Source of the DNA: Tetradesmus obliquus
Lineage: Eukaryota > Chlorophyta > Chlorophyceae > Sphaeropleales > Scenedesmaceae
DNA length: 64,000 bases
Direction: 5' to 3'
NCBI GenBank assembly: GCA_030272155.1
Contig: CP126198.1
Location: 5,270,001-5,334,000 of the forward strand
Made by a program: the position numbers and the translations under genes
Notes under the pieces: model-generated
Database searches by the model: none
Seen by the model: the letters and a program-made list of their open reading frames with translations, nothing else
Told to the model about the DNA's origin: nothing
Shown here: piece by piece, positions 1 to 63,981 of the stretch
How positions within the stretch are numbered: position 1 is the stretch's first letter
Layout: each line of letters begins with the position of its first letter

Positions 1-2616
1 CCTCCAGGAACTCAGCCAGTGCCCGCTGGCAGGCGTCCAGCTGAGCAGCCATGGCCGACAGCCTCGCCAGCACGCCAGGCAGATCAGCGAAGCCCACCAC
101 CTTGCCGGCAGCCTGCACAGCAGAGCAAGGCAGCAGGTAATCACGCTAGTGCACAAGCAACCAATGACTGTCAGCAGAAACAGCCAGCACGCCGGGCAGC
201 TCAGCAAAGCCCACCACCTTGCCGGCAGCCTGCACAGCAGAGCAAGGCAGCAGGTGATCACGCTAGTCCGCATGCAACCAATGAGTGTCAGCAGAGATAG
301 CCAGCACGCCGGGCAGATCAGCGAAGCCCACCACCTTGCCGGCAGCCTGCGCAGCAGAGCAGGTCAGCAGATAGTCTCGCTAGTGCACAAGCAACCAATG
401 AGGGTCAGCAGAGATAGCCAGCACGTCGGGCAGCTCAGCACGGCCCACCACCTTGCCGGCAGCCTGCGCAGCAAGGCAAGGAAGCAGCCATGTCAGCCAA
501 CACGTTGAGCATCGCAAGGCATGATGTCAACCCAGATTGCCAATACAAGACAGGCAGCTCGGCAGAGGCCAACCCCTTACCGACAGCTTGAAACACAAAG
601 CAATCGCCACCAGCTGTTGTCGGCTGCCGTCAACGCATCATGCAGTACCAGAACATATGGTAAGCAGGCATAGCCAGCATACGCCAGGCAGCTCAGCAGA
701 GCCCAGCACCTCGCCGGCGGGCTGCAGCCTGCGCAGCGACCCAAGTGATCAGGCAGTTTTGTCTTTTGATACACACCATACAATGCAGCACAGGACCAGA
801 GATCCAAATGAGTATCCAGCGCATGCCACCCTGCAAAGCCAGCCTCCTTTACAGCAGGCCTAAAAAAAGCACTCACCGCCAGCTGGCCCATGATAGCCCT
901 GAACTCCCCATCAACATGCTTGAAGCGTCCAGCCACAGCAGGCAGCGCCCCTCTGCCGAAAATGGGCTCCAGGTACAGCCAGCGCCGCTGGATGCCCTGC
1001 AGCAGGCCCAAGCCCTCCACAAGTGTGGCCAGGCGGCTTTCCCACGATGCCACCTCATCCTGCAAAGCAGCAGCAGCACATGCAGCAGTTTGACCAGACT
1101 TCCACCAAACATCTGACAAGCCCCTCATCAGTGAGGGCAGGTGGCTCCTGCAGGACGCCACCTCATCCTGCAAGAGCAGCAGCAGAGGCAGCAGTTGATT
1201 TGACCGGGGTTTGACCAAGGTCCAATGGACCATGTCATTGATGGGCTCCAGGTACAGCCAGCGCCGCTAGATGCCCTGCAGCAAGCCCAGGCCTTCTACA
1301 AGTGTGGCCAGGCGGCTTTCCCAGGATGCCACCTCATCCTGCAAAGCAGCAGCACCACACAGCAGTTTGACCAGGGTCTGACCAAAGTATTCATGGGCTC
1401 CAGGTACAGCCAGCGCCGCTGGATGCCCTGCAGCAAGCCCAGGCCTTCTACAAGTGTGGCCAGGCGGCTTCCCCAGGATGCCACCTCATCCTGCAAAGCA
1501 GCAGCACCACACAGCAGTTTGACCAGAGTAGACCAAAGTATTCATGGGCTCCAGGTACAGCCAGCGCCGCTGGATGCCCTGCAGCAAGCCCAGGCCTTCT
1601 ACAAGTGTGGCCAGGCGGCTTCCCCAGGATGCCACTTCATCCTGCAAAGCAGCAGCACCACACAGCAGTTTGACCAGAGTAGACCAAAGTATTCATGGGC
1701 TCCAGGTACAGCCAGCGCCGCTGGATGCCCTGCAGCAAGCCCAGGCCTTCTACAAGTGTGGCCAGGCGGCTTTCCCAGGATGCCACCTCATCCTGCAAAG
1801 CAGCAGCACCACACAGCAGTTTGACCAGGGTCTGACCAAAGTATTCATGGGCTCCAGGTACAGCCAGCGCCGCTGGATGCCCTGCAGCAAGCCCAGGCCT
1901 TCTACAAGTGTGGCCAGGCGGCTTCCCCAGGATGCCACCTCATCCTGCAAAGCAGCAGCACCACACAGCAGTTTGACCAGGGTCTGACCAAAGTATTCAT
2001 GGGCTCCAGGTACAGCCAGCGCCGCTGGATGCCCTGCAGCAGGCCCAGGCCTTCTACAAGTGTGGCCAGGCGGCTTTCCCAGGACGCCACCTCATCCTGC
2101 ACATCCATTTCAACAGTAGCAGCAGCAGCAGCCCATCAGGAACGGCAGGTTGATGGTGGATGCCCTGCAGCAGGCCCAGGCCTTCGACTAGCATTGCTAG
2201 GTGCCTTTTCCAGGACGCCACCTCATCCTGACGGCAGCAGCAGCAGCACCAGCAGCAGAGGCATGCGCAGCATGTTTGACCAGGAAAGATGTTGGCCAGG
2301 CCGGCCACCAACGATGCAGCCACATCCTGCAAAGCAGCAGCAGCAGCAGCCGAACCACGCACCTTAAACAAGTGGTGGTAGGCTGACATCTTCAGGCTCG
2401 CCACCAGACTTTGGTGGTTGCCCAGCTCACTCAGCACCTCGGACCACTCCTTGATCAGCTGCACAGCACGAGAGCCGGCGGCCTGACCAGCAGCAGCAGG
2501 CGCTGTGTTGCTGCTGCTGCTGCTGTCCTTGCTGGGGACGAAGGTGAAGCTGCGCTGCAGGCCCCACAGCTTCAGCTCGGACAGTGCCTTGCGGATGAGG
2601 GCCTCGCCTTGAGCCT

Positions 2617-2658
<42 letters not shown>

Positions 2659-5600
2659 CCAGCAGACAGGGCCAGCGGCAGTAGCAGCAAGGGCAGCGGC
2701 AACACCTAGCATCAGATGCGGCAAGCACCAAGAGTTGCAGGTGGTGTGTTGTTGCAAGCTTGCATCTTGCGCTGACTAGAGTAGCAGTGAGCACAGCGGC
2801 TGCAGCCACATAGGGGCAACCAGGCAAGCTGCAACAATTCTGTTGAATGCTGCATGCATTAGGGCAGAATTTTCACCAGTAGCTGCAGGATGAATACAGC
2901 ACTATATGCAGACTCATTGCATCATGAATGTCATCGCTCCATCACCTGAGTAGAAACACTGCAAAACCCAACCCACCATGGCATCCAGAGCCTTGATCTT
3001 TTCCAAATGAATGTCATGGCTCCATCACCTGAGTAGAAACACTGCAAAACCCAACCCACCATGGCATCCAGAGCCTTGATCTTTTCCAAATGAATGTCAT
3101 GGCTCCATCACCTGAGTAGAAACACTGCAAAACCCAACCCACCATGGCATCCAGAGCCTTGATCTTTTCCAAATGAATGTCATCACTCCATTACCTGAGT
3201 AGAAACACTGCAAAACCCAATCCACCATGGCATCCAGAGCCTTGATCTTTTCCAAATGAATGTCATCACTCTATTACCTGAGTAGAAACACTGCAAAACC
3301 CAACCCACCATGGCATCCAGAGCCTTGATCTTTTCCACATTCGCAATGATTGCATCGGCCTTGTCCAGAAAGTGCGCGAGTGTCACTGTTTCTTTGGCCA
3401 AGCTGCCCTGCTTGAAGCCCAGCAGGGAGAAGAGCTGCAGCCAGTGGTTGTCCTCCCAGCCGATGCCGCGCATGCAGCTCTTGAGGTGCGGCAGGCAGCG
3501 TCTGTGCAGCACATGCGGCATACCAAGCCATAATCCATGTAACAGCTGTGTTAGTGTGCCATTTTGTTATTGTGCAAGATGCAATGTACAGTTGATAGGC
3601 GAGGTTGATGAGCGGGCATGGTGAGTGTGTCGCGCAAGGCAGCCAGCGGCTGTCCTCCCAGCCGATGCCACGCAAGCAGCTCTTCAGATGAGGAAGGCAG
3701 CACCTGCACATAAAGGCGCACATTTCACAGAGCAGGCGTACAATGCATTGATGTAAGTTAGGGTTTTACGGATGCCAGGTGGAGATGTTGCGCGAAACAT
3801 GGCAGTAAGTGGTGGTATGCCGGTTTGCCAGCCAGCGGGCTTCTTAGTCAGTTTGGTGATCCGACAGGCTAGGCTGAACAGCAGCAGCAGCAGCAGCAGT
3901 TGCCGCACCTGTACGCGTTGATCACAGATCTCCTGCAGCAGAACCTGTGCAATACCTGCCTTACCAGGCCCTACCACCCCGCTGCTATACCAACGTGAAA
4001 TACGCCCAACAGCAGCAGCAATTGGCCGCACCTGTAGGTGTCAATCTCCTGCAGCAGTACCAGAGCAATAGCTGCCTTGCCAGGGTCGGCTGCTGAGGCG
4101 CCGCTGCAGCTGCTCTCCCACTTGGTGAGGAAGTCCTCGATCTTCCACACCTGAGAGAATGGAGTGTCAGCACAGCAGCAGGGCGCTTAGCTGCACAATC
4201 CTCGCGTATCTTGGGCTGTCATGAACACTGCAGAAGCCCGAGCAACATGATGCAAGTACAGCAATGAGGTGGTATCGTAACGAGCATCCACTTATCACTC
4301 CTCCGCACGCATTGCACCGCAACACGCTGCGCTACGCCGAGCTCCAATGAAATTTAATGTGGACTGCGCCTGCCGTACAGTGTCAGGAGGCCGAGCTTAT
4401 GGACTGCAATGCACAGTAAGCAGCAAAAAGCCATAAAAGGCAAAGCAGGCCGCACCTGGTCCCTCATGCTGAGCCAGTCCTTGTGCGCCAGTGCGTCCCG
4501 CTCTGCCAGGAAGTCCCGGTAGCCGCCCCAGCTGGCCTGGGTAGCCGTTAGGTCAGCCGCCACCTCCTCCAGCTGGGGGAAAGCGGGCAGGGACAGCCCC
4601 AACGCCTCACACTCCTGCATTGACAGTGAAAATGCCGGAAGCAATTGCATAAGCGTGCATAGACAGTGAAAAAATGCCGGCAGTAGTTTGCAAGGGTGCT
4701 CAAAGTGGGTCTGGTATAGGTTGGCAGCCACCTCCTCCAGCTGGGCGAAGGCTGGAAGGGCTACACTACTAGTGCTACACTACTAGTGCCTCACACTCCT
4801 GCAAGCAGATTTGATGTAAGAGTGGTGGGCAGCAGTTTCAAAGTGGCACTCAAGTCAGCAGCCACCTCCTCCAGCTGGGGAAAGCCGGAAGGTCTACACC
4901 CAGTGCCTCACACTCCTGCAGGCAGAAATGAACAAGGTTGTTCGGCAGGTAAATAGGGGTCACTGAGTCTGCGTTAGGTCAGCCGCGACCACAACAAGCT
5001 GGGGGAAGGCTGGCGGGGACAGCCCCCGCGCCTCACACTCCTGCAGGGACAGCTGAGATGGTCGAGATATTGGAGAAGGGTGCTAGATCTATAGAAGTGT
5101 ACACCAGCTCGGCAGCGGTCCACGCACAAATATATAACATGTACAGCATTTATGAGTTCTCCCGCCTTTTTCTGGCCGGGCCAACTAATGCACAGCGAGG
5201 GTTACGCACCTTGCACAGCTGTTCTGCCTCCTCCTGCACGTCCTGCAGCTGCCGTGCAGCATCTTCCAGCTGAGCCATCACCACAGCGGGATTGCCGGAT
5301 GGCCCGCCACGCGGCTTGATGGACTGCCACCTGCAGCAGCAGCAGAAAGCACATGTTCACAATCGGTGCGTATACTCCAACTGAGCAATCACCACAGCAG
5401 GGTTGCCTGAGGGAACACTGCGCGGCATGATGGACTGCCACCTGCATCAGCAACAACAACATCACAAGCACATGATGCACAGCGTTGCAGCCGTCAAGGC
5501 ATACACGTCACTTGATGATTGACACATACCACGCAGTGGTATGAAAGTCAGCAACCTAGCTCGCATCAAGTACTTGCACCCACCTTGACGCAAAGCCAGC

Positions 5601-7049
5601 TACAGTGCCGCCAAAGTCTTCGAGCTTCTTCCCAAGCTGCTGCTGCAGCCCCGCCCGCTGCCCCTCCAAGTGGCTGTCATACGCCTGCAGCTGCCCTACA
5701 AAGCCGTCCCAGCGCTCAGAGAGGCCCGCTAGGTCAACGACGGTCAACGCTGAGCTGGAGGCAGCACCAGCAGGCGTTGCTGCTGCCATCTGACGCAGCA
5801 GGCGGTTCTTCTCCTCCACACGCTTGCGCAGCTGCAAACAAACAGCCCAAGAGCAACAGCAGCTGCATGGTCAGCAAAAACTGCATACTTTCTTTGCGTA
5901 GCAGCTGGCAGGTTGGGAATGCCAGACAAAACAGATAAAACAATCAGACTAACTTTCACACACAGCTGCGTTGCAAACACATGTGGCGTGAACAACCAGT
6001 AGTTACAAGGCAGGCCGTACATGAAATACAAATCAAACCTTCTTACCACTGTGCAACTGCACATGGTACACAAGCCATCTGCTGCACGATATCTGTTTCC
6101 TTTGTCAACCGCACCTGAGGCACCTCCCCAAGCCGTGCCACCAGCGCCCGAGCCTCCTGCCCTGCGCGCCCGATCTCCTCCACACTGCTGGCCTGCAGCG
6201 CCAGCAGCGCAGCGCCCGCTGACAGGAAGTCCTCGATTGCCTGGCGCTCAGCAAACGCCTGCAGGAACGGCGGCAGTGCAATAGCAGGAGCAGCATCAGA
6301 GCAGCAGCAGCAGCAGTAGCAGCAGCAGGAAGTGCATGACATCAATGTGTTAGTGATGCTGGCTTGAGTGGAAAGCCAGCTAGTGGACGTACATGCTAGC
6401 AGCGGGGTGCAGAAGCAACACGTGGCGGATGGCAGAGCAGTAAGAAGCGCACAGCAGGCATTCCTAGTGCGCTGCAGTACATGTGATCGGAGCTGCTGCC
6501 AGAAACTAGCGTAATTCATGGCATCCGCATGTGCACATGTAAAGTTTCGAAAATGCAGTTGAGTAGCACCCCCGCACCTTCTTGCGCAGACTGGCTCCCA
6601 GGGCTTCTCTTAGCCGCTTGATCATCTCTTCTACATATGCCTTGAATGGGCTCAGGCTCACGCGGTAGCAGTCCAGCCGCACCTGAGTATTGCAAAGAGT
6701 AGCAGCAGCACTGATCAGCAAGCACTGCGCATGTCTGCTGTTGCACACATGCATCAAGAGGCTTGAGCTTGCGCTTGGCTGCACAGCACCGCCAGTAAAA
6801 AAGCAGATGCAGCAAGCTTGCACACATCACAACACACGTTGTCTGCGCAGAAGGCAGGCAGGATCAAAATGCTGGCGGCAGTAGCCCACTGAGCATATAA
6901 CATATGATGTTGATCCAACAAGCAGGCACGTTGCAAAGATCACCCGCTACCCTGCAGTCACTCACCTCGTTCGGCAGCTTGTTCAAATCATGTGCAGCTG
7001 TCTTCAGCATCCGCAAATTCAGCTCCCAGTCGCCAACATCACCGCCAGC

Positions 7050-7083
<34 letters not shown>

Positions 7084-7540
7084 TCTCCACACAGCGCAGC
7101 CTCCACGTGCTCCTCAAGCTCCCCTGCCACGTCACCCAGCACCAGCCAGTCGCTGCTAATTGCTCACAACCAGCAAGCCAACACCACAAACTGCAGTCAA
7201 TCTGCAGCCACTCACCTCGTTTGGCAGCTTGTTCAGATCATGTGCAGCTGTCTTGAGCATCCACAGATTCAGCTCACAATCACCGACTTCACTGCCTGCA
7301 AAGCTGGTGCTGCTGCTGCTGTCATCGCCGCACAGCGCAGCCTCCACGTGCTCCTCAAGCTCCCCTGCCACGTCACCCAGCACCAGCCAGTCGCTGCAAA
7401 GTGCTCACAACCAGCAAGCCAACACCACAAACTGCAGTCAATCTGCAGTTGCTCACCTCATTTGGCAGCTTGTTCAGATCATGTGCAGCTGTCTTCAGCA
7501 TTCGCAGGTTGAGCTCCCAGCCCCCCACATCACCGCCAGC

Positions 7541-7576
<36 letters not shown>

Positions 7577-8267
7577 GTCCCCGCACAGCACAGCCTCCAC
7601 GTGCTCTTCAAGCTCCCCTGCCACGTCACCCAGCACCAGCCAGTCGCTGTACTTCTTGGCTTCGTCAGCCAGAGCAGCAAACAGTGCTTCGCAGGACTCG
7701 TAGACCTGCAGACGCGTGAGGTGGAGTCAGTGGGTGTGCGAGCAATGAGAATCAGAGCATGGAGCAGCAGAGCTGCGTATGTGCAGACCCGGGCAATGGT
7801 TCTTTCATATTGCAGTGGATGTACTTGCTTGTGGTGTGCAGGCCATAGATAGAGTTTGACAACATGTAAGCCAATGACATGCGTTGACGCATGCATGCAG
7901 GCCAACCACCAGTAATAACCGTCAGTGCAAGCACTCACCCTTGCAATGGCCGTTGGGTCTGCATCAGCAATGGGTGCAAAGAAGCCTTGCCTTTCACTCA
8001 AATTGCTCACGCCCTTCATGCGCAGCGGCAGCCCCAGGAAGCCATTCAAGTGGCGGCTGTAGTGCTGCAGGCGCAGTGTCTCCAAAGGAGGGTCAAACTG
8101 CAGCCGCTTGTTCTTGTATACAAGGGACACCTCCACCTGCGGACGAATGCAGCAACAGCATTATACGGTGCTCACTCTCCTTCTCTGGTCTCAGATCATG
8201 TGTTCAACCTGTTGTGGCTCATACCATCTAAGATGGTGCCAGGACCCACATGTTACTATCCTCTCTG

Positions 8268-12000: not shown

Positions 12001-15000
12001 AACCTTCTGTACAGCGCGCCTTATGGTTTCTGCGAAACGGTGCAACACGCAGGCCAAACACCTGAAGCTTGATCACATAGTATTCTCTGTTTTTATAACC
12101 TCTTACCGAACAGCTCACTCAGCTTCTGGCTGATCCTCGCCTGCACAGCCTCCGGCCGCGGCTCATGCTCTGCAGTAGCATTGGTTGCCACATGCATAAA
12201 AAAACCCTGTTACAAATCACAAAACCCCTCACCAAACAGCTCCCTCACCTTCTGGCTGATCCTCGCCTCCACAGCCTCCGGCCGCCGCTCATGCTCTGCA
12301 GTAGCATTGGTTGCCACATGCACATAAAACCCTGTTACAAATCACAAAACCCCTCACCAAACAGCTCTCTGAGCTTCTGGCTGATCCTGGCCTCCACAGC
12401 CTCCAGCCGCCGCTCATGCTCCGCAGCAGCAGTGGCCCACGCCGCGCCCGTGAACTCGCTCACGTGCAGCGCTGCCAGCTGGCCAAAAGGCGCAAAGGCA
12501 GCGGCCAGGCCCAGTGCTGAGGATTCCTCCTGGCTCAGCAGCGCGGTGAGCTCCTCGTGCAACTCCCGCAGCGCGTAGATCTGCGGATTTGGGGAGGCGG
12601 TGCAAGAGCAAGATATCAATTATATGCATGAGCCTGTGTCAGGCAGCAACAGCAGCGCTGTGAGCTCCTCATGCAGCTCCTGCATTACGTAGATCTGCAG
12701 TAGCACGCATAGGCAGAATAACAGCACAGCGTTAGAAGGCAGCGGTTAGGCCCAGCGCTGAGGCCTGCTGCTGGCTCAACAGCGCGGTGAGCTCCTCGTG
12801 CAACTCCCGCAGCGCGTAGATCTGCCGGGGAGTGAAAGCGTGGGGGCGTGCAGCAGTGATGTTACAGTCCAACGCTGCCATGCCAACAGACAATCCTCAC
12901 GTGACCGTGGTCTCTCAAGAGAGATGTGATCAGCAGCATGCATAGGCATGCGTTGCAGCGGCATGCACAATATGATGTTCTCCTTTCACACTTTGCACAA
13001 TACTCATATGCATACCCACCTGCTCAAGTCGCTCTTGGAATGCAGCAGTGTAGCTGTCAGCAGCAGCCGGACCCTCCCAGGCATGGCCTCCTGCATCCAC
13101 GCCCGCTGCCCAATCGCTGCTGAGCGTGCGCGCCTCAGCGGCCCATGCAGAGAGCAGCTGCCCCGCAGATATGAGGCTGCCTTTGAGCACGTTGAAGGAG
13201 GTGTGCCAAAGATCCACGCCCTGCAGCTTGCGCTGCAGTAGAAAACACAGGGGTTTTGCAGGCGCAGGAGTGGGAATGAAGAAGCAGCAACGAGTGCCAG
13301 GTGCAGGGCATATGGAGAAGAGGGAGCACAAGAGGAAGTCACTAGTAAAGACATTGTGGCTCTAGCAAGCTGCGCCTGGCGACTGCATCACGCATATGCC
13401 GCTGCCACAACCACAGCATGCATAACAGCAACCACAGAGCACTGCCTGCAGTCGTAAGAAGCCGCATGTGTTCCAATGCAGCAGTGGCCACGTACAGGTC
13501 AGCAAAACCCCACCCACCTGTACGAACACAGCAAAGACTGCGCCCAGCACCTTCAAAAATGCTGTACAACACAGCTGCCTGCTGCCAGGCAAACGAATCG
13601 CAAGCACCAACTCACCTGGACATACGCAGCAAAGGCTGCGCCCAGCACCTTCAAAAATGCTGCACAACACAGCTGCCTGCTGTCAGGCAAACGAATGACA
13701 TGCACCAACTCACCTGGACATACGCAGCAAAGGCTGCGCCCAGCACCTTGATGAAGTGCTGCACAGCACAGCTGCCTGCTGTCAGGCAAACGAAACACAT
13801 GCACCAACTCACTTGAATCAATCAACACGAGGCTTCGGGTGTGCGTAATGCTTGCAAACACGAGGGTGTAGTTGCCGCTCCATTGGGGCGCGGGGCCGAT
13901 GGCGTTGATGCTATGGCTTGATGAGTAACATGATGATGATGATGCACCAACTCACCTGCACAAATGCAGCAAAGGCTGCGCCCAGCACCTTGATGAAGTG
14001 CTGCATGCGCCGCTGAGGGAAGGCCCAGCCTGCCGGCGGCATCTTTAGCGGCCACACCTGCAGCAGCAGCAGCCATCGGGAACGCATACAGTTGATAATA
14101 TAGAGGACCACAGCCTGCCGGCGGCATCTTCAACGGCCACACCTGCAGCAGCCGCAGCGGCAGCAACCAGCACGGCATGCATGTTTGCATGCATATGGAG
14201 CACATAACTGTCAGCGGTGCAGATCAGCCTGCTGGCGGCATCCCAGTGGCCACAAAGCAGCACCATACAGCAGCACCCGCGGCGGTGCTGCATTTGCTGA
14301 GAACACCACAACGCTGGTCAGCTGCAGAACAGCACTGCTGCTGGCACTGATCTGGCGCAGGGCATCTCCCAAGTGTCCCACCAACTCCAGCGCCCCTTCC
14401 CACTCCCCTTCCGGCTGCCAGCAAACGACATACAAAGCAAACAGAACACCAAAACACCGACAGAGCTGCTGACCTGGCGCAGTGCATCTCCCAAGTGCCC
14501 CACCAGCTCCAGCGCCCCTTCCCACTCCCCTTCCAAGCTACCAGCTGCCAGGCCTGCTAGCTGCTGCTGCAACGGCTCCAGCTGGCGCAGCACTTGAGCT
14601 GCTGTGTGGGCGTGCACACCTGCCAGCAGCAGCAGCAGCAGCAGCAGCAGTAGGAGCAGCAGTGCACCGTTACTTTACCTGCTAAAGGGAACAACATTCA
14701 CATGCAACTTGGCACCTGAAGCGTCTGTACACACAGCCCCGCCTTCGCCAAACATGCCTCGCTGCTTGCACCCACGTGCCTTCTGCAGCGCCACTCCCAT
14801 TGAGAGAAGATAGTTACATGTGGGTCCTGGCACCATCTTGGATGGTATGAGCCACAACAGGTTGCACACAGGTCTGTGACCAGAAGAGGAGAGTGAGCAG
14901 CGTAAAACACATTGAGGACGTTCTCTGTTGCACCGTCTCTATAATTTATCGCAGCAGCTGCATCTGCAGTGCCGCACCGCATTCAGCCAAGTGACAACAC

Positions 15001-17851: not shown

Positions 17852-20800
17852 GCTGCGGGGCCGCTGTCCTGCATGAGAATGCCCGCTGTGCAGTGAGCGA
17901 GGCCTCCAGGAAGCTTGACAGCTGCACTGGACCCAGCACCCGCACTTGGCCCTCATCATTAGCTGCCCTCCGCAGCTGAACCTCCTGCAAGGCATACAGG
18001 GCAGAGCAAAGCACAGCAGAGCAGGCACAATCATGTGCTGGGGGACGGGTTTAGGTTTAGGGTTCGAGGTTCAGGTGACCTAAACCCTAAACAGATACAT
18101 GAGCAGGCATGCTTTGCAGCTCACCAGCACCATGAAGCGCAGCCGTATAAGTCCTCTGGTGTAACAGCTGGCATTGCTGCGGCCACGGGAGCATGGCAAA
18201 ACGCATGAGCATCAAACAAACCAGAGCAGCTGAAGGGCAGGAGTGTGGCTGCAGCATGAACTGCGCAGTGCATGCTGGACTCAAGAAACAAACCAACACA
18301 CAACTGTCCACTGGAAACCATGCAGCAGGCACCCGGCACTGCTGCGGCCACACGAGCATGCCAGCATGTGAAACACACCAGAGCAGCCGAAGGTCAGGCG
18401 CAGGGCAGGCAGTGTGGCTACAGCATGCACTGTGGGACTCAGGCAAGCAACATACACACAAAGCACTGCCGATGATCTACTGCGGGCACCACAAGGCAGC
18501 AGGCATATGAGAGGAGACTTACATGAGCATCACATGTGCACCACAATGCATGAGGCCCCTGCATGCCCGCCTCACCTCTGGCCGGCCATCCTTGTAAGCG
18601 TGCCTGTAGAAGCAGCTGGTGCCAAAGGGGCAGCTGCCCTCCCCAAAGTCAAAATGGCTGCAGTCCCGCTAGCCCATAGCTGCCTTGCAACTGTCCTACC
18701 CAAGCATCATGCAGCAAGCCCAAAGCCATGCGGTGCTTTGCCTCACATTTACAAGCTTGCAGTCCATGGCGCAAGCAAAACCAATGCATCAAGCATCCAA
18801 TTCAGACACCACAATGCAGCAGACGTGCGCATGCTGCATGCCCGCCTTACCTCTAGCCGGCCATCCCTGTAGGCATGCCTGTAGAAGCAGCTGGTCCCAA
18901 AGGGGCAGCTGCCCTCCCCAAAGTCAAAATGGCTGCAGTCCCGCTGGCCCATAGCTGCCTTGCAACTGTCCTACCCAAGCATCATGCAGCAAGCCCAAAG
19001 CCATGCAGTGCTTTGCCCCACATTTACAAGCTTGCAGTCCATGGCGCAAGCAAAACCAATGCATCAAGCATCCAATTCAGACACCACAATGCAGCAGACG
19101 TGCGCATGCTGCATGCCCGCCTCACCTCTAGCCGGCCATCCCTGTAGGCATGCCTGTAGAAGCAGCTGGTCCCAAAGGGGCAGCTGCCCTCCCCAAAGTC
19201 AAAATGGCTGCAGTCCCGCTGGCCCATAGCTGCCTTGCAACTGTCCTACCCAAGCATCATGCAGCAAGCCCAAAGCCATGCAGTGCTTTGCCTCACATTT
19301 ACAAGCTTGGAGTCCATGGCGCAAGCAAAACCAATGCATCAAGCATCCAATTCAGACACCACAATGCAGCAGACGTGCGCATGCTGCATGCCCGCCTCAC
19401 CTCTAGCCGGCCATCCCTGTAGGCATGCCTGTAGAAGCAGCTGGTGCCAAAGGGGCAGCTGCCCTCCCCAAAATCAAAGTGGCTGCAGTCCCGCTGGCCC
19501 ATAGCTGCCTTGTAAGCAGACACGATCGCCTCTTTGTCTGCTGCTGTGTCAGGCCACTTGCCGCTTGGGGTGATGAAGTGCGTGGGGGTGCGGCAGATGG
19601 GGCAGGTGCGCAGGGCCTGCGACATGCAGTAGACATCGAGACGTAGGCAATTAGTAGAGGGGTTTTACTGGTGTACTCATGCGGCATACGCCACCACCAA
19701 CACCTGAAAGGATTGGAACACCAAGTAAGTGCAACTGTCGGTTGCTTTCATCATGGATAGATAGTTTTGGCCTTCAGCTTGCCAAATTTTGGCCGAACAT
19801 GCTGTGGTGCCTGACTGGATAGCAGGGCAAGCTCTGCACAGTGCAGGGCTTTCAAACCCCCGTAGCAGCATGTCACACGGCAACCATAGCTGTTTGTCAT
19901 GCCAAGCATGGCTGACATTCCACCAGCAGCGTTGCTGGCCTTGCAAGCAAGCTGCAGCCCGTAGCCGCTCTGAGCGTGCTCACCTGTCGATGAACACCAC
20001 GGATGCTTCATCAACCCTGCCATGCTGCAGCAGCTGTGCCAGCTGCACAAGCAACAGATGCTGCGCCGCGGAGTGCAGTAGTATCATCACAGCCAACACA
20101 CAAGCCAGCACTGCACACTCTCACCGTGACCTTGTCCACCTCTGCTGTGCTGCGCCAGCTGCGGATGCAGCCTCAAACTACAGTGAGTGTGCAGTGCCTC
20201 ACAACGATCACTAATGCACCAGACCCTCACCGTGACCTTGTCCACCTCTGCCGTGCTGCGCCAGCTGCGGATGCAGCCTCAAACTACAGTGAGTGTGTAG
20301 TGCCTCACAACAATCACTTAATGCACCAGACCCTCACCGTGACCTTGTCCACCTCTGCTGTGCTGCGCCAGCTGCGGATGCAGCCTCAAACTACAGTGAG
20401 TGTGTAGTGCCTCACAACAATCACTTGCGCCAGACCCTCACCGTGACCTTGTCCACCTCTGCCGTGCTGCGCCAGCTGCGGATGCAGCCCAGGCAGAAGG
20501 AGTGCTCACACGCCATCAGCCCAAAGCGGCGCGACGACACGTCAGCCTTGCCCAGCACCTGCGCAGGCAAGCAAAAAGGAAACAAATGCAGGCAGGCAGG
20601 TGAGCAAGCAGGGGTAGATTGGTTGGTTGGTTGGTTGAGGTGAGCAAGCAGGGGTAGACGATGCTTCAGCCTTGCCCAGCACCTGCGCAGGCAAGCAAGA
20701 AGGAAACAAATGCAGGCAGGCAGGTGAGCAAGCAGGGGTAGATTGGTTGGTTGATTGGTTGAGGTGAGCAAGCAGGGGTAGGCGATGCGTCAGCCTTGCC

Positions 20801-21552
20801 CAGCACCTGCGCAGGCAAGCAAGAAGGAAACAGTGGCAGGCAGGCAGGTGAGCAAGCAGGGGTAGATTGACTGGCAGGCAGGCAGGTAATCAAGCAGGGG
20901 TAGATTGATGAGCCTGTCATTGGCTCAAAAACGGGCTGTGTTGCGGTCGTGTAACACACAAATCGTGATTGACTGATTGATTGATTGATTGAGGTGGGCA
21001 AGCAGGTGTGGACAACGCGTCAGCCTTGCCCCGCACCTGGGCAGGCAGGCAAGCATGCATTAAGCGCACGGGGCAGGCAAGCATGCAGTGAGCGCACGGG
21101 GCAGCAGGTAGGCAGCACAAGGATGCCTTGTCACTGTCGAGTGCTTAAGCAGCAAGTCTGTTCAAAAATGCTACCTGACATGGACTGTCGAGCCGCTGAT
21201 CAGATCCCTGGCCGGCACCAGCCTGCTGCCTACTGCAAAGTCATCACGCAATGTAATGCAGCGCAGCAGCAACAGACACGACAGCTGACCCTTTCATCAT
21301 GAGCAGATGCCGCATTCACTGGCCCCACCTCTTCAGCTGCCCATGCACTGCACATGTGCAAAGCATCGCAGCTGTTTCAGCACAGCAGCTCACCTTTTCA
21401 TAGCAGATGCCGCACTCAATGGCGCCGTCCCTCTTGCGCTTGGCAATGCTGGCTGCCAGTGCGGCACAGCTGGTGGCGTGCTGCTGCGCTGCCGCCGCGT
21501 TGAAGGGGTGCAGGGCGTGCTGCTGGCAGCTCTGCGGGAAGCAGCGGGTCAG

Positions 21553-32330: not shown

Positions 32331-32573
32331 AAGGACTGCCCCGGGCATGGTGCCAGCCTGGACCCTGCCGGCTACCTTGAGGCGCTGCTGAGCTTCATTT
32401 TCAGCCAGCAGCAGAAGGACTTCCAGCAGCTGCACGGCAGCAGTGGCATGCCAAAGTGAGTGACCTGTTCCATAGCTGAGCCTTGCCAACGACGTGGTCA
32501 TGAAAGGCTGTGCAGCACAGTGCGTCATGGTTTTGTGCATTGCCAGATCATGATGCACTGACTTTCTAAAAAC

Positions 32574-32633
<60 letters not shown>

Positions 32634-33085: not shown

Positions 33086-33116
<31 letters not shown>

Positions 33117-36568: not shown

Positions 36569-36638
<70 letters not shown>

Positions 36639-38645: not shown

Positions 38646-39244
38646 TCATGCAGCCTTGACACCAAGGTACTTTAACGCAGCCAGGAAGCCAGGCAGCACA
38701 TCTGCTGAGGCCGATAGCGGCACTGGCACAGCTGCATTTACTGAGCAGGCAGCGCTGGCGCCCCAAATACCAGCTTGCAGGGCAGTTGCTGCACCATACC
38801 CTGAAGTTATGTGCACTGCACCGGCTGCCAGCCTGGCGCGCTTGCTTGCGGGCACCACAAGCCCAACTGCTGACACTGCCGCTGCTGCGTCAACACCACC
38901 TGCTGTCCCATTACAATTGGCTTGCACACTCCCGTGCTGCTGCTGCTGCTGCCGGAAATCAGCTGGCTCATCCTCCCCATAATGCACCTCCATTGCTTTC
39001 ACAGCAGCATCCTGCGCCAAGGCCTCGCATGCAGCCATTTCGCCCCAGGCAGAGTCTGCCCTGCCTCGCTTCCTGCTGCTGCTGCCGCTGTCGCCAAGCT
39101 GCTGCAGCCGCACTACTGCTGCCAGCGCCTCCAGCTGCTGCTGCCGCTGCTGCTCCTGGCCCTCATCAAACCAGCCTGCCAGGTCAGCCAGGATCAGCTG
39201 CCTGGCCTGCTGCCCCAGCACCTTGGCTCCTCGCTTCTTCTCCA

Positions 39245-39276
<32 letters not shown>

Positions 39277-40551: not shown

Positions 40552-40582
<31 letters not shown>

Positions 40583-40806
40583 GTGATAACAGGTGGGGTG
40601 TAGGGGCAGGTGCTGGTGTGTTGCTGCTGCTGTGGCACAGCTGCTGCACCATGTCACCTACTGCTGCCAGGCTGGCCTGCAGCTGTGCCTGGTTGGGTGT
40701 TGCGAAAGGAGAGGGACCTGGCATCAGCTGCCGCTGCTGCTGCTGCGGTGAAGCCTGCAACATGGCTGGCACTGGCGCATTGCCTGCAGCGGCAGCAGAA
40801 TCCTTG

Positions 40807-40837
<31 letters not shown>

Positions 40838-43558: not shown

Positions 43559-43589
<31 letters not shown>

Positions 43590-46500: not shown

Positions 46501-47711
46501 TCTTCCATGCTGTGTGCTGCTTGCAGGAAAGGCTGGCCAGCACTTGCAGGACCGCCGGCATTGCCAATGCTGTGTGCTGCTTGCAGGAAAGGCCGGCCAG
46601 CACTTGCAGGACTGGCAGGTAGGCTGCCGCTTGGTGAGGTGACAGGATGCTGCAGCCCTGGGTTGCTGCTGCTGTTGCTGCCATGGTGTGTGTTCTTGGC
46701 AGGCCCAAGCCTGAGCAGCGGCAGGCCTGCTGCTGCTGCTGCTGCTGCTGCTTTTGGCTGTGGGCTGTCCCCTTCTGCTACCGGGCTTGCAATGGGCACA
46801 CGCGCCGCAGCTGCATCAGCAGCAGGTGCACTGGCACCAGCTGCCAAGGTGCTGATGTCAAGCGTACTGTGCATGCTTGGGTTGCTGCTGCCAACCTGGC
46901 GGCGTCCTTGCTCCGAGTCACCAGCAGCATGTCTAACATGATAGCTGCTGCTGTGAAGCTGCTGCGTGTCCTGCAAGTGACCTTCCGTGCGCAGCTCATC
47001 ACTGATATTATTTGCTTGCTGCTGCTGTTGACGCCTTGCAGGCACGTAGTGTGTTGGCGCTGCTGCAGCTGCAGCTGCTGCACTCTGCTGCGGCCCAGGC
47101 ATTGCTGGCGCATGCTGCACTCGACCTCCACTTGCAGGAAAGCTCCTGCTGCCCCACACACCCCCGCCAGAGGCTGCTGCTGCTGCTGCCGCTGATGCTG
47201 TGCCCGAGCCTGCCTGGCCTCCTGTGCCTGCCCCTGAAGCAGTACGCATCACCATCTGCTTTGCTGGGTTGAGCAGGCGGCCGAGGTAGCTGTAGAGGGA
47301 GTTCTTCATGCCTGGCTGCTGCTGCTGCATGCCCTCTTTGCCTGCTGCTGCTGGCGCTGCTGATCCTGCTAGATGCACAGCTGCCGGTGGCAGGCCTATT
47401 GGTGGCCTCAGGCTGCCTGCTGCTTGCTGGCCAACAGCAGTCGCAGCAGCAACAGCACTGCCGACAGGAGGCAGCAGCATGTTGCTGCCTGCAGCTCCTG
47501 CACTGACATTGGGCCTGCTGAATCCGGTGGAATCTTGCGCTGCAGCTGGTTTGAGCGCCAGGGCACCAGCAGCGGTGATGGCGCCATGTGAATCAGCTTG
47601 CAGGATAGGCCGTTGCTGCTGCTGCAGAGTGGGGGCCACCCTGCTTGCTGGCCCTACGAAAGACTGATCATGCTGTGTAAAATGCTGCCTGGTATCGTCG
47701 AAGCTCTCCAT
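38646..47711 (-). CDS. Giant intronless Ala/Gln-rich protein, function unknown
   Basis: One open frame of 3,021 codons from ATG at 47711 to TGA at 38646. I recognise no domain. Composition is dominated by Ala and Gln with Ser, Pro, Gly and acidic residues. Internal repeats include QQYNQQYNQQYNQQY (about 45480-45555), a doublet SAGRPFLQAAHS / SAGQPFLQAAHS, a VPEPAAAASSDQE series, and AVLQQPAVLQQ. Long tracts are poly-A in this frame and poly-Q or poly-S in shifted frames, which is expected of CAG/CTG DNA. The last ~145 residues look more complex and carry basic clusters (SRKRGR, KRARL) that could be nuclear signals. Absence of stops over 9 kb argues for selection, though low-stop triplet repeats also help keep frames open. 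It may be a disordered nuclear scaffold, or several introns may be hidden inside. Confidence 0.65.
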
Positions 47712-49396
47712 TATTGCATGCTTAACTGAGGCTCAGCTCATCAGCCCAGCAAGGCACCTGCAGCAGCAAGGACACATGAGAACCTGGCAGGACGGCGCAC
47801 GCTAGCAGTCACAAAATTTCAAGCACGTATCTAAAGATATAATCTAGCTGCGCAAGCTGCGTGTTGGTGGTGGTGTGCCTCACCTTTTGCTGCTTGAACA
47901 AATCGCTCTGTTTGAATTGCTGGCATGATCCAAACAAGGAAAGCTAACAGATAACCTTCAACGCAAGAATGAATTCCATTGACGCTTGCCAACAACGCTG
48001 CCAAACAGGTGAAGGAGCCCTAGCAAGACTGAATTGGATGCAGGGTTATTTTCCGAAGAGTACCGGAAACTACTCTAACATCTGTTCCTGAATGTAATGA
48101 GTTGCCAAGAATTCACACCTCAAACTCGTGTATAATTTCTGGTTGCATACAAGGCGGCTGCCGTTCCCATGTGCCATGAAAGCAGGCTGGTGATGTCCAA
48201 CATTTCAAACTTGCTGCAACTGTCACACACAGCCTGCGATGAGCAGTCTCGTTTGCCGGGCGGTTTGAAATAGTATATGTTATTATTTTGTACTTCAACT
48301 CAAAGGCTCTGAACTCGCAATAACGTAAACGGTCCTTCCAGTGCTCAACGGATGCAGGCTGAACAGCGACCACTGCAGTGCAGATCACTGCCAGTAAACT
48401 CTCATCAGGCACTGCCAATAAACTGTCATTAGGCAATGGTCATGATGATTTCATCCAAACTTACAGCATGCTGACCACATACATTGTCAGCTGCTGATCA
48501 AGCAACAGGCAGGGACACCAGAGCTGCTGTAAGACAGGAGGCTTTCACTGATGCGTGTCCTGCTGCATCATGAATTCGGCGTACTAGGCCACATGCGGTG
48601 CGTGCTGGCAGCCACTTGAGTTACTTCTGGCATCTGGCAGTGGACATGCATCTCCAGGGCTGATACACACAGCCTGTGGATGAACACAGCAGACAATGGG
48701 CCCCATGAGGCGGCCTCAATGCACCTCTCCAAGGCCATAAACCACATATGCCGTCATGAACCACCACTCGTGCTTTCGACGGCGAGCACGTTGAGCAGTA
48801 GAGCGTCTATTTATAGAATACTAAGGCCAGCCATTTGAGTAGCCTGCAGCTGCTGCCCTGGTGCTAGGCCCAAAGAAGGCGAGGTGCAAACAAGAGGCAA
48901 AATAGCGAGTGCGGTCACGCACTGCATAACCAATCATCAAAAGTTCACACTCTGAGGCTTCACACAACAATACTGCTACCAGCCATTCCATGAAATCCTG
49001 CATCTGGCCTGCCTACACAAACGTTTCTGAGTTTCCTGACCATGAAACAGTCTGACGTAATGGTTTCATGCATGCTTGATGTGCCCTGGCCAGCCGTGGC
49101 TGCAACCCCTGAACTTAGCCTTCAGACTGCACTGTGCTGCAATCACTTTATGTTAGGCGGTGAGCCAGAACAAGCAGAGCTGTTTTCAATACAGTGATAG
49201 AAACCAACCGTCCGCAGTTGCAGCCAGTCTGGCCAAGTCCAGTACCAACCCATCCAGCAGCACCCATCTGTCTGGCATGAGTTCAGCACAGTTGTAGTCA
49301 GGGACCTCTGTTTCTGACAAGTTACTACTGCAGCAACTGGCAGTTGAATCGCAAGTAGCAGCACTTACACTCACATAAGTAGCACACACCTGTCAC
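47712..49396. other. Intergenic, no supportable gene
   Basis: About 1.7 kb, less triplet-rich than its surroundings. A 107-codon minus-strand frame at 48113-48436 has no recognisable features. A TGTAA (minus strand, 49365-49369) lies 28 bp past the stop of the next gene and may be its polyadenylation signal. Confidence 0.5.
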
Positions 49397-53011: not shown

Positions 53012-56000
53012 TCATCCGAAGTAGATGCTGAGCACAAACCGCGTGGGGTTGAACCCCACCAGCGCTGCAAATGGCAGCGCTAAGAAGATCAGGCCTATGG
53101 GCCACAGAAACACCTGCAGGCATCAGGCGCAAGTATTCGGTGTAAGCCGAAAGGCAGCAGCATCACTTGCAGGAACACGGCTGTGCCATATCTGAGGCAC
53201 GCTGCACAGCCAGGCACCTGCCAAGTTCAACGCAAATGCACAACGCTCCCAACATGTACGCGAGCACAGCCAGTCACTTCCACACACGCCCTGCAGGCCA
53301 TGCACGACCATGCACAGCATACCCACACGCATGAGTGCTGTGCCAGCTTCTGCACGTCACTGCTGTACCTGCATCACCGCTGTCTCTCAATGGCGACATG
53401 CTGCTGCTGTGCTGCTGCTGCTGCCAACATTGATCACCCCCTGCCACCCAGCCTAACTCTGCCCGCTCCAGGAGGTTTTGTGCGCTGTAGCCCAGGAGGT
53501 TAGTGTAGCTGATGGCAAGCTCAAGTGGCAAACAGAGCACGAATACTCGCACACACAGCATGACCGCGGCACCCACCTCTTGTCCGCTCTAGGAGCGGCA
53601 GTGCGCTGTAGCCCACGAAGTTTATGAAGCTGATGGCAAGCTCAAGTGGCAAACAGAGCACGAACACTTGCACCACACAGCATGACTGCAACACCCACTT
53701 CTATTTGCTTCAGGAAGGGCAGTGCGCTGTAGCCCAGGAAGTTTATGAAGCTGATGGCAAGGTCAAGTGGCAAACAGAACACGAATACTCGCACCACACA
53801 GCATGCCAGCTTCAGTCAACTGCCGACATGTGCACTGCAAACTCTCTGTCGACAGCATGACTGCAGCACCCACCCCTGTCCACTCCAGGAAGGGCAGTGC
53901 GCTGTAGCCCAGGTTGTTCATGAAGCTGATGGCAAGCTCAAGCGGTAAAAAGAGCACCACACACGCACCACACAGCATGCCCGCTTCGGTCAACTGCTGA
54001 CATGTGCACTGCAAACTCTCTGTCGACAGCATGACTGCAGCACCCACCTCTGTCCGCTCCAGGAAGGGCAGTGCGCTGTAGCCCAGGAAGTTTATGAAGC
54101 TGATGGCAAGCTCGATTGAGCAAGTGGCAAACAGAGCACAGATACTTGCACCACACAGCATGCCCTCTATGGTCAACTGCTGACATGTGCACTGCAAACT
54201 CCTCTGTCAATACCATGACTGCAGCACCCACCTCTGTCCGCTCCAGGAAGGGCAGTGCGCTGTAGCCCAGGAAGTTGAGGTAGTGGTAGTACGCCAGCAC
54301 CACAGCGTACAGCACACACGACACCACGCCCGACACGAAGCTCTTCCACAGCAGGAAGGGGCTGCCCAGGAACTGCAGCACTGCAGGCGGGGTGTGATGA
54401 GGCGCAGCACACAGCACACAAGAGCAGCAACACAGGCAGAGGTGTTAGCAGAGATATCGCAGCAGCTCATAACAAACAAGGCGTGCAGCGTTGTGGTGGG
54501 TACAGCCACAGCAAACATGGAATGCCCAGGAACTGCCGGCAGCTGGGTGAGGCACAGCACATAGCACACAAGAGCAGCAAGGCGAGGCAGCAGATGCGAA
54601 AGTTTACCATAAAGCATGCAGAAGCTCATAGCGAGGCGAGCAGCATTCTGGTGGGTACAGCGAGATGAGACAGCAGCTGATACAGACCGTTATAGTGCTG
54701 GAGCATGCAGCAAAGATGTGATAGGCGTGTGGCAATTGCTGGGCTGTGTGCTTCAGCTACTGTGCATGTCTACTGTAATGTAAACAAGGTGACTGCTGCA
54801 GGCATTGCTCGCGGAGACCAGTCCTGCAGGAACATCTGTACACAAGCGCAAGCAGCAGTGTCCCAGACAAGCAACATAGACTGACAGCCCACCCGCTGGC
54901 GCTGCTGCTACTGCTCACCATACAGCAGCAGGAACAGCGGGAAGTATGAGTTGCAGTGCACGTCAAACGCATACAGCCTGCAACAGCAAAAAGATGCAAG
55001 CAGCAGCATGAGCTCCTGCAAGCAACTGCAGCAGGTGATGCACAGGTTCAAGCACTGCTGCATGCCCGCCGCTGCTGCTGGTGTAGCACAGTGCACTATG
55101 CTGCTGCTGCTTGTTGCCAACGCTGCCTTAAAGCATAGCAGCTGCTGCTGCTGCCCACGCACTGTCAGTGCTGCTGCCAGACCGTGATGCCAGCCTGTGC
55201 AATCAGGAGCAGCAATAGCGGCTCATACCATCGCCACGGGTGATCCATTTACTGCTCATGAGCTGCGTGCATTTTGCTGCTGCTGCTGCTGTTCTGCTCA
55301 CCACTCGAGGTGCTGCTCTACTTGATGCTGCGGCAAGTTCTTCTTGCGAAGAAACCTGTTTGCGATGAACCTGCAATGCATAGTAGCAGCAGGGCAGCAG
55401 CAGCTTAGCAAAGGTTCAAGGCTCCGCAGCACCTGTCTCAAGCAGGTTGCTGAGCACTGCTTGCACTTTTGTGTTTATCCACATAGTGGATGCCGCTAGT
55501 GATGCTGATGCGGTGCACTGCTCTGCCTTTGCTTCGACGTACAAAACCTGCCTAGCAACAGGTGTGCTAACAGTGATGTCCATTGCACCTCACTACTGTA
55601 AGTACTACTGCTGCTGCTGCTGCTGCTGCTTCACTCAATGCTACAGCTGCTGTCTCTGCTGCCATCAATGCTACAGCTGCTGTCTCTGTTGCCACCAATG
55701 CTGCAGCTGCCGTCTCTCGGCTCACCAGCATGCTGTGGAGATGGCTATGCCCAGTAGCAGGCAGTCTGCTGCACCCCACTACTGTGAGTACTGCTGCTGC
55801 TGCTGTTGCTGCAACGCGTGCTACAGCTGCTGTCTCTGCTGCCACCAATGCTACATCTGCTGTCTCTGCTGCCATCAATGCTACCGTCTCTCAGTGCTGC
55901 TGTCTCTCGGCTCACCAGCATGCTGTGGAGATGGCTATGCCCAGTAACAGGCAGTCAACAATGACAGCTGACAAGATGGTCAGCAGCGAGTGCCACAGGT

Positions 56001-61318: not shown

Positions 61319-62356
61319 TCACGCCAGCTTGCTGTGCTTGCTCTTGCCGTACAACAGCAGGAACAGGTTCCTGCAGGTGCAACGCGGCGCAGCAAGGGTG
61401 ACATGGCAGCTGGTGAGCTGGCAGGTACTGAAAGCGACTACAGGGAAAGCAAGATGTGCATGGCAGCGACCAAAAATGCGGCCAACACAGGCAGTGCACT
61501 AGCAAGTAGCTGCGCTCACACTGCAGGTCAGCGTAGAGCCAACGTATGTGCAGGTGCATGCGTCAGCACAGCTGCAATGCATGCTATGACACGTGATAGA
61601 AGAGCTGCCCCTGCCTCACCTGTCGACATGCTCGCAGACGATACACACAAAGCATGCGCCAGCAAAGCTGCGATACACACCAGCAAAGCTGCGATACAGG
61701 TTGTGATCAAAAAGCTGCCCCTGTCTCACCTGTCGACGTGCTCGCAGACGATACACACAAAGCATGCGCCAGCAAAGCTGCAATACACACCAGCAAAGCT
61801 GCGGTACAGGCTGTGATCAAAAAGCTGCCCCTGCCTCACCTGTCGACGTGCTCGCAGACGTACAGCAACGGCAGCACCGCCAGCGGCAGCAGCATCTGCA
61901 CCCAGCCCACCACTGGCACCTGCCATAGGCCTGCAAGCAGACAGCCCTGATCCGCATACAGCAGCATCAGGCATGCCCCCACATCCCACAGCACCTGCCA
62001 CACTGCCCACGACAGCCGCTGCTGGAACACCAGCAGCAGCACCGCTGCAGCGCAGCTGTGGAACAGCGCCGGGTGGCAGGCGGTAGCGCCGCCTGCTGCT
62101 GCTGCTGCAACCAGCAGCGGCCGCCGCAGCACAACTAGCAGCAGGCTCTGCACAGCTGCAAGCAAGCTGTCCCTCATGCTGTGGTAGCTGCAGGGGTTGG
62201 ACAGCAGTGCTGCAAGCGGCATGCCTCCAGCCACTATGCCAGCTAGCTGGTGGCTCACTGGCAGTGCCCAGCTGCTGCTGCTGCTGCTGCTAAGAGCTGC
62301 AGAGAGATCCTGCTGCTGCTGCGGCAATGGAGCTGCAGCAGGCTGGAGCCACGCTG

Positions 62357-62388
<32 letters not shown>

Positions 62389-63981
62389 AGGCGCACGAAG
62401 AGCGGCAGCAGGTGGACTGCTGTCTTGGTAAACGCTGACAGCACAGCATCAACTGCAAGCCGTGAGTCAGCCAGCACCTGCAGCAGCAGCAGCAGCAGCA
62501 GAGCCGGGGTTATGTACAGGTAATCAGCATGATGCGCGGCAGACAGAGCGCCCTTCATCTCTTGAATAGTTATGCCCGCATGCTGCTGTTGAAGCAGGCC
62601 CATCCACGCACACCCAACAGCAGTGCTTGCGCTGTGTGCACAGCTTGCCCTGCTGCAGACTGTACAACAAAACCAAGCCAAGCCCCTTGCAATAAACATC
62701 ATTTACGGTAAGAATGCCGATCAGAAATGCAGGCTACCCGCTGCTCACCTTGCGGTAGCGGCCCTCCAGCCTTGCATCCTCAAAGGCAAGCGTCCTTAGG
62801 CGAACACGTTTGCATCATTACATATGCACAGTGTCACCATGCTCACCTTGCGGTAGTGACCCTCCAGCATTGCATCCTCAAAAGCAAGCTTCCTTAGGCG
62901 AAAACCTTTGCATCATTACATACGCACCGTACCAAGCTGCTCACCTTGCGGTAGTGACCCTCCAGCATTGCATCCTCAAAAGCAAGCTTCCTTAGGCGAA
63001 AACCTTTGCATCATTACATACGCACCGTACCAAGCTGCTCACCTTGCGATAGTGACCCTCCAGCCTTGCGTCCTCAAAGGCAAGCGTCCAGCTGCTGTGC
63101 GGCACACCTAGCGGCCGCACTGCACAGTGCGCCAGCAGCCGCAGCTGCGCCTGCAGGCCTGCAGCATGCGCCACTTTCGCCTTCAGCTGCGGCTGACTCA
63201 CCAGCACCAGCAGGCGCTGCAGCATAGTGCAGCCCAGCAAACCTGCCACACACAGCAGCAGCTGGCCCTGCGCGTGGCGCAGCAGTGATGCCAGCAGCAG
63301 CAGCGTGAGGGCAAATTGCATGGCAGCAGCAGCCGCCAGCAGGGACAGCCGCAGCCAGGGCTTGCAGGAAAGCTGACTGTGCATGCGCTGCAGGCAGCCT
63401 GCTGCAAAGCGAGCAGCAGCGCCAGGTGGCAATGCTGCTGCAGCTGCATCTGGCTCATCAGCATCAGCTGTGGATGTGGCCTGGCAGCCTGGCAAGAGAT
63501 CAGAAGGCAGGGCGGCACCCGGCAGCCATGTGGCGCCGCCGCTGCTGCTGCTGCTGCTGCCGTCTTTCTGTGCTCCATCATTGCACACGCTGCAATCCGG
63601 CCGCTGAGCTGCCGCTGCTGCTGCTGCTGCTGCAGAGGAGCCGGAGCGGCAGCTGCTGCTGCTGTCCTCTCGCAGGGAACCCAACTCCTGCTGCTGCTGC
63701 TGCAGGTTGTGTGCCGCTGATGCCTCCCAGCCGGCGTCTAAGCTGCTCCTGTTGCTGTACGAGCCTACGCTGCTGCTGAACGGCACTGCTGCCTCAGATC
63801 CTGAAAAGCTGTCAGGGCGAGGGCCGCCTACACTAGCAAAACCGTCTTCAAGCTTATCAGCAGCACCAAACTCTGCAGGTGCGTTCGCCGCTGCGGCTTC
63901 ATGCGCGCCCCCAGACATCGCATTGTCAGCGATGCCTGCGACAGCAGCGGCAGCGCTGCAAGAGCAAGAACCTGCAGCCAC
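61319..63981 (-). CDS. Multi-pass membrane protein of unknown family, 5' end uncertain
   Basis: Three exons are supported by splice sites and phase: 63043 to at least 63981, 61840-62477, and 61319-61370 (ending YGKSKHSKLA-stop). The N-terminal ~200 residues are low-complexity Ser/Ala/Gly with a CSVCND motif. Then come hydrophobic segments: LSLLAAAAAMQFALTLLLLASLL, LLLCVAGLLGCTMLQRLLVLV, several in the middle exon ([39 protein letters not shown]) and LFLLLYG at the end. The reading frame remains open towards the right edge without a clear ATG, so the start may lie outside the window; an internal candidate is MSGGAHE. I do not recognise the family. Intervening Ser runs are products of CTG/CAG repeats. 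Confidence 0.68.
61611..61839 (-). repeat. ~107-bp copies of the 3' edge of the membrane-protein middle exon
   Basis: At about 61615 and 61728, copies of CEHVD-R codons plus the GTGAG(A/G)CAGG donor precede the real exon end at 61840. The flanking GATACACACAAAGCATGCGCC intron segment is copied with them. A smaller repeat of AGCAAAGCTGCGATACA lies within each unit. Confidence 0.85.
62744..63042 (-). repeat. 98-bp array: three copies of the 3' edge of the membrane-protein first visible exon
   Basis: CTCACCTTGCG blocks at about 62746, 62844 and 62942 precede the real exon end at 63043, 98 bp apart. Each copy encodes LAFEDA(R/M)LEGHY(R/H)RK-type sequence with its donor, followed by the same intron piece TTTGCATCATTACATA. 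Confidence 0.9.

Follow-up and report, generated by a model that had tools for sequence, protein, structure and literature searches.

In a 64,000-nucleotide stretch of the nuclear genome of the green alga Tetradesmus obliquus (hereafter the window; contig C8, positions 5270001-5334000 of a 17-contig, 104.66-Mb assembly), edges of exons are found as tandem arrays that run into the adjoining intron. Each array consists of one real exon edge and at least one copy, within the intron, of that edge, its splice site and a piece of intron. Exon-intron borders are over-represented among the tandem arrays of the 334 kb of sequence sampled, beyond what the geometry of selection against exon damage would produce.

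Over-representation of exon borders

The sample comprised the window, the 30 kb upstream of it and six 40-kb blocks (three on C1, two on C2 and one on C9), and represents 0.3% of the genome in clustered form. Gene models were obtained with a two-strand generalized hidden Markov model (GHMM) trained on the same 334 kb, and are ab initio save where homology supports them; an earlier GHMM was dropped, as it over-predicted tiny exons. The final version converged on the donor AG/GTGAG and the acceptor TGCAG/G (the slash marks the junction), with 441 introns.

Arrays were detected by Tandem Repeats Finder (TRF) with permissive weights, a score of at least 150 and a unit of at least 80 bp, thresholds that were fixed after the output had been seen and that are reported alongside strict settings. 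With these settings, 35 arrays overlapped a border, 6 were confined to introns, 3 to exons and 2 to intergenic DNA. The null expectation was random placement on array-collapsed gene models, with exon-internal cases removed. Under this null, a border is included in about half of all random duplications of ~110 bp within a gene, and no special process needs to be invoked, as the length of an intron equals only two to three units (median 271.5 bp once arrays are collapsed); the expected border proportion was 53% (21.9/41). The observed proportion of 35/41, against 21.9-22.0 expected with arrays placed within their own block (odds ratio 5.1, P=9.6e-6), is thus an excess that persists after allowing for the purging of exon-internal duplications. 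It is found in the window alone (13/14 versus 7.4 expected, P=0.0016), in the 30 kb upstream, where eight arrays lie at borders and none is intron-only (8/8 versus 5.0, P=0.019), in the sample blocks (14/19 versus 9.4, P=0.025), and in all sequence with the window left out (22/27 versus 14.4, P=0.0017). Furthermore, arrays of only two copies show it (10/12 versus 6.4, P=0.028; in the sample blocks 8/9 versus 5.0, P=0.033), as do all arrays with a unit of at least 60 bp under strict settings (25/30 versus 17.35, P=0.0018). The junction tends to lie toward the middle of the unit, with only 3 of 29 values falling in the outer zones, where 31% would be expected (P=0.0085; four of the original 33 values exceeded 1 and were dropped as wrong borders), but a Kolmogorov-Smirnov (KS) test of junction position was not significant (P=0.29).

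A single array-rich region supplies much of the excess. At a match of at least 88%, every one of the 14 genic arrays is placed on a border (13 belong to the window or to its 30-kb upstream flank), and one further array of this class is intergenic. Strict-setting arrays of period 40-500 occupy 10.1% of the window, versus 0.4-4.8% of the five blocks measured.

Several sources of a spurious or trivial excess were considered. Chance repetition contributes little, as a block-shuffled version of the 334 kb yielded 2 arrays against 60 in the real sequence (score used, unit of at least 60 bp). Bias of the gene finder was not supported by planted arrays: 92 border and 92 intron arrays were introduced, and 87 of the 90 detected border arrays were called border, and 85 of the 86 detected intron arrays intron-only. 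Slower decay of a constrained exon copy, taken as the whole answer, raised detectability only 1.15-fold in simulation. Short direct repeats as seeds fared no better: across borders, the density of 6-mers repeated at 80-200 bp was only 1.09 times (low-complexity words left out) to 1.14 times (all words) that in introns. Neither effect therefore yields an odds ratio of four to five. The corresponding ratios for 8- and 10-mers were 1.53 and 2.07 without low-complexity words, and 1.13 and 1.06 with them, a rise that was tentatively attributed to residual decayed duplications.

Border arrays with a unit of at least 80 bp recur in four of the six sampled blocks (six in b0, five in b2, one in b4 and two in b5), with none detected in b1 and b3 under permissive settings. 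The whole assembly was also searched with Pfam, and inspection by eye for tandem exon-like matches sharing one model edge added two loci. In another dynein gene (C8:5.4584-5.4591 Mb), three matches end at DHC_N2 position 277, and the DNA holds three exon tails with 5' splice sites; in a kinesin gene (C2:7.4307-7.4314 Mb), four matches begin at positions 260-263, and five copies of the exon head lie upstream of the real one in the 900 bp examined. The remaining overlapping pairs were ambiguous. The original prediction spoke of a genome-wide process, and recurrence elsewhere and the border excess bear this out for the sample; a statement about the genome rests on 334 kb of 104.7 Mb and these two loci.

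Anatomy of the arrays in the window

Under permissive settings, 13 window arrays overlap an exon-intron border and one is intron-only. The border arrays are distributed among dynein-2 (seven), makorin (three), UNC-50 (one) and one further gene (two), which confirms that exon edges and splice sites are copied into the introns of four genes, where some 15-20 events had been estimated by eye.

66..603, minus strand: dynein-2, unit 117 bp; intron end plus the first ~47 bp of exon -21..112, copied upstream (3' splice-site type) with the oldest copies outermost; the exon matches DHC_N2 and DYNC2H1
1209..2101, minus strand: dynein-2, unit 152 bp by TRF, 3' splice-site type; joined via decayed copies to real exon 877-1059, which aligns to the DYNC2H1 linker
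2924..3340, minus strand: dynein-2, unit 83 bp, 5 copies; ~32-bp tail of exon 3309-3501, 5' splice site and intron head
7018..7654, minus strand: dynein-2, unit 241 bp, 3 copies of exon tail plus 5' splice site; the real exon ends at 7457, from protein continuity with DYNC2H1
12097..12435, minus strand: dynein-2, unit 125 bp, 3 copies; tail of exon 12358-12580 (weak DYNC2H1 match, i-Evalue 0.52) and 5' splice site
13509..13815, minus strand: dynein-2, tentative, unit 98 bp; predicted exon edges inside, no real exon validated; classed as intron-only by the strict test
14115..14345, minus strand: dynein-2, decayed (68% match), unit 109 bp; tentatively of 5' splice-site type
18559..19515, minus strand: makorin, unit 275 bp, 4 copies; tail of exon 19401-19616 and 5' splice site, the junction agreeing with protein A0A383WCS5
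20114..20489, minus strand: makorin, 4 copies of a 107-bp unit on the 5' splice-site side of the RING exon (20442-20558)
20533..20910, minus strand: makorin, 3 copies of a 124-bp unit on the 3' splice-site side of the RING exon (20442-20558)
53463..54276, minus strand: UNC-50, unit 174 bp (outer part 121 bp); exon tail ending at 54232 and 5' splice site, similarity dropping with distance
61567..62056, minus strand: further gene, unit 110 bp, 3 copies; tail of exon 61840-62477 and 5' splice site
62735..63089, minus strand: further gene, unit 98 bp, 4 copies; tail of exon 63043-63955 and 5' splice site

A typical unit joins ~20-180 bp of exon edge to ~40-160 bp of intron. The real exon is the first copy at 5' splice sites and the last at 3' splice sites, and the two kinds are about equally frequent, with 21 and 19 array ends lying in exons (37 of the 40 border arrays with a unit of at least 60 bp). 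Outward duplication on two sides of one exon holds for the makorin RING exon; the same had been claimed for dynein exons "8 and 10", which could not be mapped. Strict settings recovered the periods that the original prediction had listed (117, 152, 83, 98, 107 and 275 bp, with 125/124 for its 126), and also 241, 121/174 and 110 bp, and the arrays lie at the places it had given. Two of the 13 periods (117 and 174) are divisible by three and the other 11 would shift the frame, as had been anticipated, and TRF match values in these 13 range from 97% to 68%. The region 26-53 kb, with its septin-like, intronless and transporter genes, is free of arrays with a unit of at least 80 bp; the four arrays detected there under permissive settings all have units of 60-68 bp.

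After removal of the decoy copies by hand, the protein of the window's dynein exons (1176 aa) aligns with residues 724-1633 of human DYNC2H1 (6rla_A; E=4e-162), and Pfam confirmed dynein exons upstream. The arrays at 13509-13815 and 14115-14345 sit in a part of the gene without homology validation, and strict TRF on array-collapsed models classed 13515-13812 as intron-only. Pfam also confirmed UNC-50 and an SBF-like transporter in the window. The identity of makorin is supported by homologues, and the gene (~17.6-25.3 kb) is 99% identical, over 47% of the query, to the T. obliquus protein A0A383WCS5 (P0002). Small differences from the window's makorin show that this protein comes from a different strain or a very closely related species. 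This protein, itself a prediction, agrees with the makorin junctions AEVDKVT/ALRTCP and GRLE/EVQLRR. The gene finder, left to itself, put decoy pieces into the predicted dynein and makorin proteins.

One observation concerns the array at 7018..7654, in which a GT...AG intron piece of ~63 bp (7394-7456) separates the first two copies, so that splicing of a mini-exon is possible in principle.

Evolution of the copies

Divergence was examined in hand-picked arrays with a clear border: 20 for the comparison of coding constraint (19 of the 40 border arrays plus array L036), 19 for a test with array ends removed (17 reported), 17 for the outermost pieces, and 18 for splice sites and for near and far copies. 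In real exon edges, private changes fall preferentially on third codon positions (6:8:18, P=0.02). In the copies, the distribution of 34:23:39 is not significantly uneven (P=0.12).

Coding constraint on the copies appeared in a first comparison, in which the exon part was the more conserved (copy against copy, in 17/18 arrays; 16/18 on repetition). This apparent conservation arose because the outermost intron piece is often hardly alignable. Its mean divergence is 0.41, a figure inflated by indels and to be set against 0.54 for an unrelated control, versus 0.12 for internal intron pieces; the terminal exon edge diverges by 0.12. With the outermost piece dropped, the exon part was less diverged than the intron part in 9/17 arrays for real exon against copy (P=0.22) and in 5/7 for copy against copy (P=0.22). 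Pooled over seven arrays with ends removed, copies differ from each other by 0.085 in exon-derived and 0.094 in intron-derived sequence, and copies differ from the real exon and its intron by 0.079 and 0.106, respectively (17 arrays). Within the power of these tests, there is no significant coding constraint on the copies. The idea that the outer intron had never been homologous was also set aside, as junctions read by eye suggest homologous, indel-rich outer pieces in several arrays, and ordinary tandem duplication therefore stands.

Anchored on the exon part only, copies retain GT in 29/32 and AG in 21/23 cases, and splice sites are kept at about the rate of the remaining copy sequence. Consistent with use of the outermost sites, A0A383WCS5 joins exactly the outermost makorin exon edges and carries no decoy peptide. 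The nearest copy resembles the exon more than the farthest does in 11/18 arrays, with 3/18 equal, and border arrays are more homogeneous than intron-only arrays (P=0.002). In the makorin array 18559-19515, the outermost copy reads AYKDGR, as do A0A383WCS5 and Scenedesmus NREL 46B-D3, and the real exon reads AYRDGR; the agreement is weak evidence, because Scenedesmus PABB004 also has R. Overall, the copies look like tolerated minisatellites and not like a decoy-making device. The suggestion that the process serves to manufacture decoy splice sites is thus not upheld, as the copies, outer array ends aside, evolve about like the adjoining intron, without significant codon bias; slippage or template switching, proposed with it, is a possible cause of the duplications.

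Origin and persistence of the arrays

The arrays probably, though far from certainly, represent direct tandem duplications, mostly of ~80-275 bp, that span junctions, are anchored on the exon, and are refreshed and re-expanded as older copies decay on the outside. Duplications wholly within exons would be purged, and those across borders would survive because the outermost splice sites, beside the intact exon body, would still be the ones that splicing keeps to. The real exon edge, frozen by selection, would then remain available as a partner with which copies could slip or exchange unequally; border arrays may thereby be refreshed and re-expanded, with older copies staying outside to decay. 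The pattern of divergence and homogeneity fits old duplications re-expanded beside a conserved exon edge. A number of results weigh against this account. Strict settings in the sample blocks alone give 7/10 border arrays against 4.95 expected (P=0.16), and the difference in homogeneity is not significant there (P=0.06). In 4/18 arrays it is the farthest copy, and not the nearest, that resembles the exon more, and the makorin protein that omits the decoys is predicted and not a transcript. Furthermore, exon anchoring without re-expansion accounts for only the simulated 1.15-fold gain, and two-copy arrays need no re-expansion yet show the excess. Because they do, part of the border focus probably reflects where duplications start.

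Alternatively, splice junctions may be hotspots at which tandem duplications of 100-150 bp arise, with a continual supply of duplicated splice sites, a tentative proposal that we regard as possible but doubtful. Some feature of transcription, splicing or chromatin would cause breaks or fork stalling at junctions, and repair would duplicate the surrounding 100-150 bp; R-loops, a bound spliceosome or nucleosome edges might be features of this sort. The excess of two-copy arrays, the tendency of the junction toward a central position in the unit, and the failure of decay or short direct repeats to explain the excess all speak for it, but the numbers are small and the KS test does not support a central junction. 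Absence of any focus, with random tandem duplication, purging of exon-internal events and introns so short that most survivors fall on borders, is unlikely. It would be in keeping with the high expected proportion, the strict result in the sample blocks and thresholds chosen after the data were seen, but the excess holds with the window excluded and under strict settings overall, and planted arrays were classified correctly. Selective retention of the copies for a role in alternative splicing or regulation, whether as splice sites or as exons, is very unlikely: preservation of GT and AG in most copies is what it would predict, but codon-position bias is not significant, the exon part of the copies has no extra conservation, most periods shift the frame, and the related makorin protein lacks decoy peptide. 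An assembly artefact is scarcely credible, given the graded differences among copies and the occurrence of arrays in many genes on several contigs.

Comparison with known systems

One likeness is to human genes in segmental duplications, which have internal tandem repeats at exon-intron boundaries (PMC2812944); in both, tandem repeats across such boundaries affect gene structure. However, the human repeats vary between paralogues, can form novel introns and have transcript support, whereas the algal ones lie within existing introns of single genes. Tandem genomic duplication is also a route of intron gain, in which an exonic AGGT segment is duplicated to create a new intron (PMC3443670). Both place duplicated splice sites inside a gene, but the alga duplicates an existing junction into an existing intron, and in 10/10 window arrays with two flanking exons modelled the intron reaches beyond the array, which is not the arrangement of intron gain. 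Tandem exon duplication (PMC9013439) likewise sets exon sequence and splice sites in tandem, but copies the whole exon with both sites. The algal arrays usually copy one exon edge: 37/40 border arrays (unit of at least 60 bp) end inside the exon and 3 do not, some borders being uncertain. Exon/intron repeat units are shared with Tetrahymena leucine-rich repeat (LRR) genes, which contain arrays of 90-bp exons for which unequal crossing over was proposed (PMC6564038); there, a single gene family carries entire coding exons in its arrays, in contrast to non-coding exon-edge copies in unrelated genes.

Minisatellites resemble the algal arrays in unit size, copy number, homogeneous middle and diverged outer end. 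As in minisatellites, units of tens to hundreds of bases are repeated head to tail (by TRF), but unlike them most algal arrays include a splice junction and the real exon edge. Dispersal of the kind seen with introners was not found for the makorin region 18300-20600, the one array region searched, for which 52 of 55 matches fell on a single 63-bp element outside the arrays and 2 were local copies. A literature search, with coverage that left out most subscription journals and all bioRxiv preprints, found no report of exon-edge arrays in green algae.

Other features of the sampled sequence

The 63-bp element lies at 19656-19718 in a makorin intron, and its 52 further matches (85-94% identity) are spread over many contigs, several in local series spaced ~215-241 bp, as in a dispersed or satellite-like repeat. 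On the minus strand, 38646-47732 is a stop-free frame of 3028 glutamine/alanine-rich codons, which the gene finder splits once. The name "septin-like" for the genes at 31759-34050 and 35996-38436 is unconfirmed, since Pfam found nothing in their last exons (upstream exons were not searched). On C1, dynein exon matches with identical scores at 5554757-5559416 and 5650967-5655626, 96,210 bp apart, stem either from a segmental duplication of recent date or from a duplicate in the assembly. Satellite-like intergenic arrays comprise L031-L032 (C9:2306527-2311112, 50/54-bp units), L020 (C1:9283977-9285239, 35-bp unit, 36 copies) and L016 (C1:5606185-5608529, 869-bp unit, 2.7 copies).

Implications

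Other gene predictors may, like ours, build decoy pieces into proteins. If the excess holds with transcript-based gene models, the arrays would be a natural dataset on the origin and tolerance of duplicated splice sites, bearing on how the spliceosome chooses when neighbouring sites are almost identical and on how alternative exons begin to evolve. Should junctions prove to be hotspots of duplication, the duplicated splice sites would be material on which alternative splicing and changes to introns could draw.

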